Source: Bacteriovoracaceae bacterium (GTDB taxonomy: Bacteria > Bdellovibrionota > Bacteriovoracia > Bacteriovoracales > Bacteriovoracaceae). Taken from it: a DNA stretch of 64,000 nucleotides. The first letter of the stretch is position 1. Each line of letters opens with the position of its first letter. The position numbers and the translations under genes were made by a program. The DNA lies in the NCBI GenBank assembly GCA_016784965.1, contig JADHTQ010000013.1, positions 1 to 64,000 of the forward strand. The letters run 5' to 3'. Shown here piece by piece: positions 46,750 to 48,083 of the stretch. The notes under the pieces are model-generated. The model saw nothing but the letters and a program-made list of their open reading frames with translations, had not been told where the DNA came from and ran no database searches.

Positions 46750-47096
46750 CCCGAGACATGGGTTACATTTTATTCCGGAGACATGGGTAACACTTTTCGA
46801 GTAAAAATATACAAGCTAGGTCAAGAATGCGGTATCAATTACAGCAAATTCTCTCTCCTTTAAATCATAATATCCTAAGTCATAGTCCATAAAAGACACT
46901 AACCATAAATCATCGTCAACTTCATTTAAGCCAATGGGTTGACCTCCAAACACACTACTTAAAAAGAACTTCATTCTTTCGGTAGTCACGTTGCTCTCCT
47001 TCCATGGCATAAAAACCTCCTAATTTAGTTTTATTATGCCACGAATAGAAAAGTGTTACCCATGTCTCCGGTATAAACTGTTACCTATGTATCAGG
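46750..47096. mobile_element. internally deleted IS481-family element
   Basis: Two inverted ends bound a ~347-bp element. The inner arms 46775-46798 and 47048-47071 are a perfect 24-bp inverted repeat containing GGAGACATGGGTAACACTTTTC. Outside each lies a degenerate second copy of the same motif (46750-46767 and 47079-47096). Such duplicated subterminal motifs are typical of IS481-like ends. Between them is a 64-codon ORF that joins the beginning and the end of an IS481 transposase. The element cannot make a transposase but may be mobilised by a full-length copy elsewhere. Confidence 0.8.
46816..47010 (-). pseudogene. IS481-family transposase remnant (internal deletion)
   Basis: A 64-codon in-frame remnant. 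The first ~20 residues ('MPWKESNVTTERMKFFLSSV') are the usual IS481-type N-terminus. From 'FGGQPIGLNEVDDDLWLVSF' on it is the family's C-terminus ('MDYDLGYYD...FAVID'). The HTH and the DDE catalytic core are absent. The deletion is in frame, so the fused peptide may still be made; this could be chance. Confidence 0.8.
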
Positions 47097-47116
47097 AATG
47101 GACCTTGTTGGGAGCT

Positions 47117-47171
47117 GTTTCCGTTTCCGTTTCCGTTTCCGTTTCCGTTTCCGTTTCTGTTTCCGTTTGGG
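47117..47171 (+). repeat. hexanucleotide tandem repeat (GTTTCC)n ending GTTTGGG
   Basis: Eight units of GTTTCC (one reads GTTTCT) end in GTTTGGGC. The same period-6 pattern ending in GTTTGGGC appears inverted at 47704-47732 on the other side of the four-helix-bundle gene. The two arrays therefore look like the borders of one unit. The 8-copy array is also expected to vary in length by slippage. Confidence 0.85.
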
Positions 47172-47184
47172 CTTGATTGCCGCC

Positions 47185-47249
47185 CTCCTTTGTTGGTAAT
47201 TAATGGGGCCCCCTGTTGCGCGAATCCCCATTAATTACCAACAAAGGAG
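47185..47249 (+). promoter_or_regulatory. perfect 24-bp inverted repeat hiding the ribosome-binding site
   Basis: The arms 47185-47208 and 47226-47249 are perfect reverse complements with a 17-nt loop. The right arm ends in AAAGGAG, the ribosome-binding site of the four-helix-bundle gene 7 bases before its ATG. In a transcript that enters from upstream, the left arm (CTCCTTTG...) would pair with it fully and block translation. Confidence 0.8.
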
Positions 47250-47256
47250 AGCTAGA

Positions 47257-47556
47257 ATGTTGAAGAGGTTTAGGACTTATCAGATGGCAATTAGGTTTTA
47301 TGAAGGTGTGCAGAAGTTGCGGTTGCCTGGGCATTTGAAGGATCAAATGGATCGGGCCAGTAGTTCTGTGGTTTTGAATTTGGCGGAGGGGTCTGGAAAA
47401 AGGACACCTAAGGATCAAAGGCGATATTATTCCATTAGTTTAGGATCACTGCGCGAATGTCAAGCCGTAATGGACTTAGTGGAGGTTGATTCTGAGTTGA
47501 GGCAACTTGCAGATCATATTGGAGCTTGTCTATACAAGCTTTGTTATCCCTCATAA
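47257..47556 (+). CDS. four-helix-bundle protein (23S rRNA intervening-sequence/S23 family)
   Basis: A 99-residue protein of the TIGR02436/S23 type. It shows the family's 'FRTYQMAIRFYEGVQKL', 'LKDQMDRASSSVVLNLAEGS' and 'RRYYSISLGSLRECQAVMDL', ending 'CLYKLCY'. Family members form pentameric four-helix bundles and are often encoded inside intervening sequences of 23S rRNA; their role is unclear. ATG 47257 with AAGGAG is the start; the longer frame would run through the inverted repeat. It sits in a cassette-like unit with inverted borders and not inside an rRNA gene. Confidence 0.88.
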   Translation: MLKRFRTYQMAIRFYEGVQKLRLPGHLKDQMDRASSSVVLNLAEGSGKRTPKDQRRYYSISLGSLRECQAVMDLVEVDSELRQLADHIGACLYKLCYPS

Positions 47557-47626
47557 GTAGGGATAGCTGGCCAGTGTGGCGCACCAGGTCAGGTCTACAC
47601 TCATCCTCAGTGGTGCTTCAGACGTA

Positions 47627-47666
47627 GAATGTTCCCTTTTTTGGGTACCCAAAAAAGGGAACATTC
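47627..47666. terminator. 40-bp perfect palindrome after the four-helix-bundle gene
   Basis: A perfect palindrome centred on GGGTACCC, with T6 and A6 tracts inside and GAATGTTCCC ends. As RNA it forms a 16- to 18-bp hairpin. It lies 71 bases after the stop, between convergent genes, and could terminate in either direction. It could also be a protein-binding or recombination site of the cassette. The rest of 47557-47732 shows no ORF. Confidence 0.6.
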
Positions 47667-47703
47667 CATCAATTTAGAATACCTACATGTAACTTTCATC
47701 CTG

Positions 47704-47732
47704 GCCCAAACTGAAACTGCAACAGCAACAGT
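47704..47732 (-). repeat. inverted partner of the hexamer repeat
   Basis: Read on the minus strand this is (CTGTTG)2 (CAGTTT)2 GGGC, which has the same 6-base period and the same GTTTGGGC end as the array at 47117-47171. It begins directly after the stop codon of the XRE regulator gene. The pair marks a ~615-bp unit around the four-helix-bundle gene. Confidence 0.6.
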
Positions 47733-48083
47733 TTAAGAAATGGAGGCAAAGTAAGCCTTCTTCTCCATGAGCTTATTGCGTTTTTTTCGAATGGCGGCAT
47801 TATCAAAAGAGATGTTTTTTGGAAAAAGGATATCACCAGGATGCACTCCAAGTGCTGGTGCCAATCGCATTGATGCTCGCTTTGTCACCTCTCTTCTCTC
47901 GCTTTCATAATCAGAGATATGTGATTTGCTAATACCTGATAAGCTTGCAAGATCGTCCTGAGTAAAAAGGCTTAACTCTCTTAGTCTCTTTATCGTTTCC
48001 CCTACACCTATAGGTTGTGCGGAAATGCCAAAAAATAGATCGAGATTCTGTATCATCTCTTCTCTATCAGGTACGCTAATCAT
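47733..48083 (-). CDS. XRE-family helix-turn-helix regulator
   Basis: A 116-residue DNA-binding protein. The HTH is clear ('IKRLRELSLFTQDDLASLSG', 'SKSHISDYESERREV'), followed by a Cro/C1-type helix ('RLAPALGVHPGDILFP') and a basic tail. It has no sensor domain. Its ATG follows the stop of the exported-protein gene directly (TAA then ATG), so the two are co-translated. It may regulate that gene or act more widely. Confidence 0.85.
   Translation of the reverse strand: MISVPDREEMIQNLDLFFGISAQPIGVGETIKRLRELSLFTQDDLASLSGISKSHISDYESERREVTKRASMRLAPALGVHPGDILFPKNISFDNAAIRKKRNKLMEKKAYFASIS

Follow-up and report, generated by a model that had tools for sequence, protein, structure and literature searches.

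The unit at 47115-47732 of the window (the whole stretch of 64,000 nucleotides of a Bacteriovoracaceae bacterium that was analysed) is quite probably a copy of a mobile cassette, in which an S23 gene is placed between inverted arrays of short repeats; the route by which such a cassette moves is not shown. The cassette encodes no enzyme for moving. The rule that an S23 gene stands between short-repeat arrays was found to recur across phyla, and its end type is made of CNG triplets every 6-7 nt in Bdellovibrionota and of plain heptamers in other phyla.

The features of the unit and of its neighbours are the following:

46750..47096, no strand assigned: deleted IS, two inverted 49-bp ends (46750-46798 and 47048-47096) with 249 bp between them
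47115-47732, intergenic, on contig C21: the S23 unit, with S23 as its one gene
47115..47172, forward strand: left terminal array, CNG triplets with a period of 6 nt (CTGTTTCCGTTT...), terminating in GTTTGGGC
47182..47208, forward strand: 5' arm of the leader hairpin, in which a reversed Shine-Dalgarno sequence (CCTCCTTTG) is retained
47209..47225, forward strand: loop of the hairpin, similar to the class of conserved loops with GTGA/GCGA at their end
47226..47252, forward strand: 3' arm of the leader hairpin, with the Shine-Dalgarno sequence AGGAG inside
47257..47556, forward strand: S23 / 23S rRNA IVP four-helix-bundle gene, 99 aa, best start ATG at 47257
47627-47666, no strand assigned: 40-bp perfect palindrome, from a separate interspersed repeat family
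47704..47732, reverse strand: right terminal array, inverted, GCCCAAAC (47704-47711) and then CTGAAACTGCAACAGCAACAG (4 CNG, to 47731)

The original prediction described the left end as eight GTTTCC units and the right end as an inverted array of period 6. The arrays and their inversion hold, but the eight exact units do not: positions 47117-47164 consist of seven exact units and one GTTTCT, and GTTTGGGC then occupies 47165-47172. This left array is the sole tandem array scoring above 50 in the 64 kb. Read as CNG triplets at 6-nt steps, it contains 9 consecutive ones (47115-47165), while the longest run in 60 Markov sequences of 64 kb each, with matched dinucleotide make-up, was 5. The observation is confirmed and lies far from chance expectation. 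The right array is inverted with respect to the left one, and the two arms pair only imperfectly because their repeat units differ. A common end sequence had been supposed to bound the unit; it is present, but GTTTGGGC is only the local end of this lineage, carried by gene-less arrays too, and we rejected it as the defining boundary of the family.

On the right, the array ends at 47732 and adjoins the stop codon of the XRE gene (47733-47735), exactly as predicted. On the left, the expected IS remnant is found, its ends abutting the unit. It is a neighbour outside the cassette: we did not accept the IS ends as a part of the unit, as arrays and S23 are also found without the IS. The IS-end sequence (GTGCAACCCGAGACATGGGTTACA...) also occurs in G000 at C15:78109, C51:28607 and C81:131613; its four main sites in the genome adjoin S23 or arrays, and on C15 a hexamer array has an IS end on either side. 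Either the IS may have a preference for hexamer arrays, or the arrays one for the IS. The predicted palindrome is perfect over its 40 bp, but its membership of the unit had to be given up: perfect or near-perfect copies of its family (AATGTTCCC...GGGTACCC...GGGAACATT) occur without S23 at C90:43845 (L134) and C100:37330 (L135), and it was rejected as a cassette component.

The only gene of the unit is S23, and several known classes can be set aside on this ground. As no transposase is encoded, the unit is not an IS or an autonomous transposon; as the Y1 transposase is absent from the window copy, the criterion for REP/RAYT membership is unmet, and as there is no reverse transcriptase in the unit, so is that for a diversity-generating retroelement. 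The criterion for an integron cassette is not met either, the GTTTGGGC end not fitting the attC core GTTRRRY.

That one small S23-family gene lies inside the unit is borne out by the match of its product to PF05635 (E=2.4e-15, 57.1 bits against a curated cut-off of 33.8, which meets the family criterion); the protein also matches TIGR02436. Its AF2 model, a monomer prediction only, has four helices with a pLDDT of 96.7, and the best PDB match of the model is 2gsc_E (TM 0.87, E=1.2e-3), so that the predicted structure meets the criterion of a four-helix bundle with an XCC0516-like fold. XCC0516, which is related to the window protein, forms a pentamer, and 2gsc is given as a pentamer in PMC4990558, which cites Lin 2006. 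Avd is matched only weakly in the PDB (4dwl, E=1.3). The dN/dS of the window gene is 0.12-0.15 when compared to its genomic paralogues (0.12 against that on C9) and ranges over 0.09-0.24 for the paralogous S23 genes, the RAYT pair and the S23 pair L058b/L074b being left out as out of frame. With dN/dS of about 0.1, the S23 proteins are under purifying selection, and such low values mean that the protein matters to each S23 copy.

The perfect 24-bp inverted repeat of the original prediction is real: it is the core of a longer repeat (47182-47208 / 47226-47252, 26 of 27 bp paired) directly upstream of the ATG at 47257. This inner repeat is the leader hairpin of S23, common to head-to-head gene pairs. 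By scanning bacterial genomes, we collected 80 related S23 loci, nearly all of Bdellovibrionota, and about half of them hold two S23 genes head to head around a near-perfect palindrome, mostly 60-100 bp apart. The inverted repeat between the paired genes has a median score of 24, against 8 for the shuffle control (the best of 20 shuffles per locus, as a median of all loci), and both Shine-Dalgarno sequences of a pair lie inside the hairpin arms. The arms diverge among loci (35% identity beside the loop); the loop, of 11-15 nt, is conserved, and terminates GTGA-like in 24 of 37 loci against 3% expected. The window copy is a single-gene variant retaining the pair-type hairpin, and we take the reversed Shine-Dalgarno sequence in its 5' arm as the putative relic of a lost head-to-head partner.

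Among the eight copies of the leader hairpin in this genome, 96% of the pairing is kept although 9 of the 26 pairs show double changes, and this pairing exceeds that of all slid controls and of all shuffles (0/500 reached it). This shows selection on the leader hairpin. The hairpin probably restricts the translation of S23, and it may itself be the recognition site of S23 or of a transposase. Another arrangement was observed at L136 and L137, where tail-to-tail S23 pairs 14-17 bp apart have period-6 arrays outside; at L137 direct repeats of ~130 bp (93%) flank the pair.

The search for second copies in the genome, which the original prediction called for, succeeded: S23 matches were found at nine places, together with one leader fragment, at unrelated intergenic sites. 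The copies are on C21 (window), C9 (91%), C108 (87%), C51, C48 and C63, and the remnants on C94, C81, C102 and C78; the copy on C63 is divergent and stands alone, and those on C81 and C102 are decayed. In the type A copies (C21, C9, C108), the hexamer arrays terminate in CAGTTTGGGC or GTTTGGGC. The CAGTTTGGGC end comes with a common array-to-leader linker (GATTGAAAGAGGGATTTTTTATTGGCC or close to it) on C9, C108 and C81 and at the gene-less array of C44; the window copy does not have this linker. The type B copies (C48, C51, C94 and the fragment on C78) have 13-mer arrays of the GCGGTTTGGGTGA kind, which are not CNG lattices with steps of 6 or 7. On C48, C51 and C94, S23 is followed by a Y1/RAYT-like transposase gene, with the 13-mer arrays to the left or to the right; composite elements of this build were noted at L031 1022-1600, L034 660-1235 and L032. 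This genome has about 24 hexamer-array loci, about 20 of which are without S23, and several of these gene-less arrays have GCCCAAACTGAAAAC...GTTTTCAGTTTGGGC-like ends with a CNG lattice that continues across the inversion point. The original prediction also called for a check of the organism's own 23S genes for an intervening sequence with the same ends; the only 23S rRNA gene that we found (on C45) is uninterrupted and has no insert.

In the 80 loci, the self-matching of the sequence near S23 is raised at lag 7 and, for a small number of loci, at lag 6. Of the runs of at least six CNG with a spacing of 6 or 7 nt, 71 lie no more than 400 bp from S23 (1.25 per kb), and the other 270 kb of these loci contain 5 (0.019 per kb), which is a 66-fold enrichment; control triplets and other spacings gave almost no runs. 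Such runs exist in 52 of the 80 loci and are missing in the other 28. Within an array the C and the G are fixed, the N and the spacer bases are highly variable, and spacers of 3 and 4 nt are mixed. We infer, without binding data, that such variable spacers fit a flexible single-stranded binding rather than the phasing of double-stranded DNA. Terminal repeats of 50-110 bp, specific to their locus and built of CNG arrays, are found in several single-gene copies that lack the leader hairpin, and in 16 of 60 loci the similarity of the terminal repeats is above the 99% level of a null in which left-right pairs are drawn from different loci. When relatives were searched for exact matches to the hexamer lattice, almost nothing came back, because other genera use other spacers, mostly of period 7. 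At the level of genomes, lattices and S23 are associated (17/32 against 41/209, Fisher p=1.2e-4), but this association comes in part from plain microsatellites, since the reversed control also gives a signal in several genomes. At L216, L217 and L221 (G128, G169, G196), long CNG lattices were observed that have no S23 gene closer than 1.5 kb, and some occur in genomes without any detectable S23. Arrays not conserved with the gene were part of what would have refuted the original prediction; they are conserved, as a rule of form and not of sequence.

The window protein gave no match to plasmids. Starting from a 52-aa piece of XCC0516, we obtained 20 plasmid records, and the S23 genes of these plasmids (Nostoc, Calothrix, Anabaena and others) are flanked by inverted heptamer arrays, as in L277, which reads GGGAACA x4, S23, CTGTTCC x7. 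Over 19 plasmid loci the period-7 identity is 0.776 near S23 and 0.503 away from it, and 11 of the 19 have inverted arms. A scan of the viral collection IMG/VR gave 32 more S23 loci; about 26 of the 28 examined have inverted arms, mostly of heptamers, with a period-7 identity of 0.778 near S23 against 0.553 (n=28), and none of the 20 loci checked there lies inside rRNA. Arms are 4-5 heptads long in 46 of 63 significant cases. The heptamer in other phyla is not always of the CNG type.

Two particular settings of S23 deserve mention. In L278, L280 and L288 the gene is inside cmr/cas operons, either between cas10 and cmr3 or between cas6 and cas4, and these are likely cassette insertions rather than Cas functions. 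Azospirillum L283 is located within the LSU rRNA and is a true 23S intervening sequence (IVS), the stems of which are heptamers of the same form as the other array arms. In Coxiella, tandem heptamers GACAGAT precede the S23 ORF of the IVS (PMC4990558). The likeness to the complementary ends of S23 IVSs, on which the original prediction drew, is thus supported, and we infer that 23S IVSs are likely S23 cassettes landed in rRNA genes. The same paper suggests that the Coxiella S23 is not made in vivo, and describes it as unclear where 23S IVSs come from, whether they move and what their protein does (PMC4990558). It is the only paper on S23 with heptamers or mobility that we found in the open-licence literature, where we found no description of such an array rule for S23 genes that lie elsewhere than in rRNA.

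Sites with and without an insert, which the original prediction suggested comparing, were found not for the window copy but for its relatives in plasmids of Nostoc and Calothrix, at four sites (A-D). At site A, the cleanest, in one Nostoc plasmid operon, L292, L295 and L296 are filled and L282, L294 and L301 are empty; the difference is almost exactly array, S23 and inverted array. The empty allele is without any array, and the array arrives together with S23. A TTCTA target duplication is possible there; the candidate target duplications are short or ambiguous. Site B, in the same operon, is filled in L282 only. Filled and empty versions were also found at site C (TraM) and at site D (nrdB/nrdA), with less clean edges. 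At sites B and C, additional or substituted bases come with the insert, and the evidence for site D comes from one more distant relative only. In L296, the S23 gene (start 702) is interrupted by a gene-less, MITE-like insert of ~200 bp with inverted heptamer arrays, which looks like a deletion derivative of the S23 cassette. In one Bdellovibrionota genome, L146 and L148 are 97.7% identical over 957 bp and occupy different sites; these S23-pair units have imperfect terminal repeats (TCTCCCTCA...) and near-perfect direct repeats of 7-8 bp, with one mismatch, which may be target duplications. Such near-identical copies and the filled and empty sites are the best evidence for movement, which remains a deduction from sequences. 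Two criteria for a mobile element are fulfilled: that of several copies at unrelated sites, by this genome, and that of filled and empty sites, at the level of the family only. The suggestion of a mobile element with a four-helix-bundle gene only is supported at the level of the family, which is multicopy, keeps its arrays and has such sites.

It could be objected that the arrays are independent short tandem repeats of the cyanobacterial or xanthomonad type, and that S23 merely inserts into or beside them. Few of the about 24 hexamer-array loci of this genome have S23, lattices exist in S23-free genomes, and heptamer repeats have been described without S23 (PMC4692102); arrays outnumbering the S23 genes and standing in genomes devoid of them may have an independent life. 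Yet the empty allele of Nostoc site A is array-free, the arrays are bilateral, inverted, flush with the S23 gene and specific to their locus, and the gene-less insert of L296, bounded by arrays, resembles a derivative of the cassette itself, so that we consider this explanation unlikely. At the other extreme, S23 could be a stationary gene, toxin/antitoxin-like or regulatory, the repeats serving only to regulate it. The ribosome binding site hidden by the leader hairpin and the presence of S23 in cas operons (PMC3936711; L278, L280, L288) would agree with this, but the existence of both filled and empty sites, of decayed copies and of many copies at loci unrelated to each other makes it scarcely tenable.

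Two further explanations concern the mover. The S23 cassettes could be passengers of a Y1/HUH transposase of the RAYT type, acting on hairpins in a REP-like manner: hairpins are abundant, and three S23 copies of this genome precede a Y1 gene. Against this, a similar transposase gene stands beside S23 in 0 of the 80 other loci, no Y1_Tnp was detected in the draft assemblies of G021, G036 and G049, which are multicopy for S23, and the selection on S23 means that it is not a mere passenger; we hold this reading to be doubtful. A spread mediated by a reverse transcriptase, with S23 as an Avd-like partner, could be argued from the resemblance of S23 to Avd (PMC10053308) and from the 2 reverse transcriptases of this genome. 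None was detected in the S23-rich G015, G021, G049, G105 and G153 (draft assemblies), and G105 has near-identical copies, which weakens this reading further and leaves it very improbable. In two S23-rich genomes, again draft assemblies, neither enzyme was detected. Since several multi-S23 genomes lack a detected Y1 or reverse transcriptase, neither seems to be a general requirement, with the caveat of draft assemblies, and RAYT or reverse transcriptase as the universal mover is unsupported.

We keep the reading of a mobile S23 cassette, and compared it to known systems. The closest is the 23S IVS with an S23p ORF (Leptospira, Coxiella, Azospirillum L283): in both, S23 lies between complementary ends (in the window, imperfectly matching inverted arrays), and the IVS ends are short-repeat arrays in L283 and tandem heptamers in Coxiella (PMC4990558). 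The window unit differs in being intergenic, in several copies and provided with a leader hairpin, in a genome whose own 23S is intact; not being inside a 23S gene, it is not an IVS, and IVSs look like members of a wider class. REP/BIME elements with RAYT (Y1) are likewise intergenic, palindromic and dispersed, and three S23 copies of this genome adjoin a RAYT-like gene, but the window copy is transposase-free and its ends are tandem arrays, while REP ends are single hairpins. Avd of the diversity-generating retroelements is an S23-like four-helix bundle by fold family, but the S23 unit lacks a reverse transcriptase, a template and a variable repeat. The heptameric intergenic repeats (STRR of cyanobacteria; GGGNATC of Xanthomonas and Nostoc; TAACTGA of Beggiatoaceae) are also short period-7 arrays, sometimes inverted; two published descriptions of them do not mention S23, and according to one of these there is no general association with mobile elements.

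TRAP (trp RNA-binding attenuation protein) is a ring protein which binds NAG triplets separated by 2-3-nt spacers. The likeness to S23 arrays, with CNG triplets and 3-4-nt spacers, is an analogy only: the protein is unrelated to S23, for which there are no binding data. By this analogy we tentatively propose, as one possibility which may well prove wrong, that an S23 toroid (a pentamer in 2gsc) would bind the arrays as single-stranded RNA or DNA, with one triplet or heptad per subunit and a 3-4-nt spacer as in TRAP. Bound S23 would tag the transcript or strand of its own cassette, to be copied into new sites by host enzymes or by a transposase acting in trans; neither binding nor movement has been measured. 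Such binding would account for the fixed register and the free spacers, for arms of about five heptads and for arrays at both ends of the gene. There is a somewhat less than even chance that the cassettes form a widespread, unrecognised class of transposase-less mobile elements with inverted 6-7-nt arrays, in which the S23 ring would read one repeat per subunit, and of which IVSs, the S23 genes of cas operons and many orphan heptamers would be insertions or relics.

The design of the S23 cassette, which matches that of the 23S IVS, suggests where IVSs come from, and since there is a free-living form which is multicopy and has empty sites, their origin, their mobility and the function of their protein become testable. 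It also gives a simple explanation for S23 genes in CRISPR operons, and perhaps for the heptamer repeats that abound in several phyla. From the array rule (C and G fixed, 3-4 nt apart with free spacers, about 4-5 heptads per arm) follows a prediction of the target of the S23 pentamer, and if cassettes do move without an enzyme of their own, the mechanism would be new.
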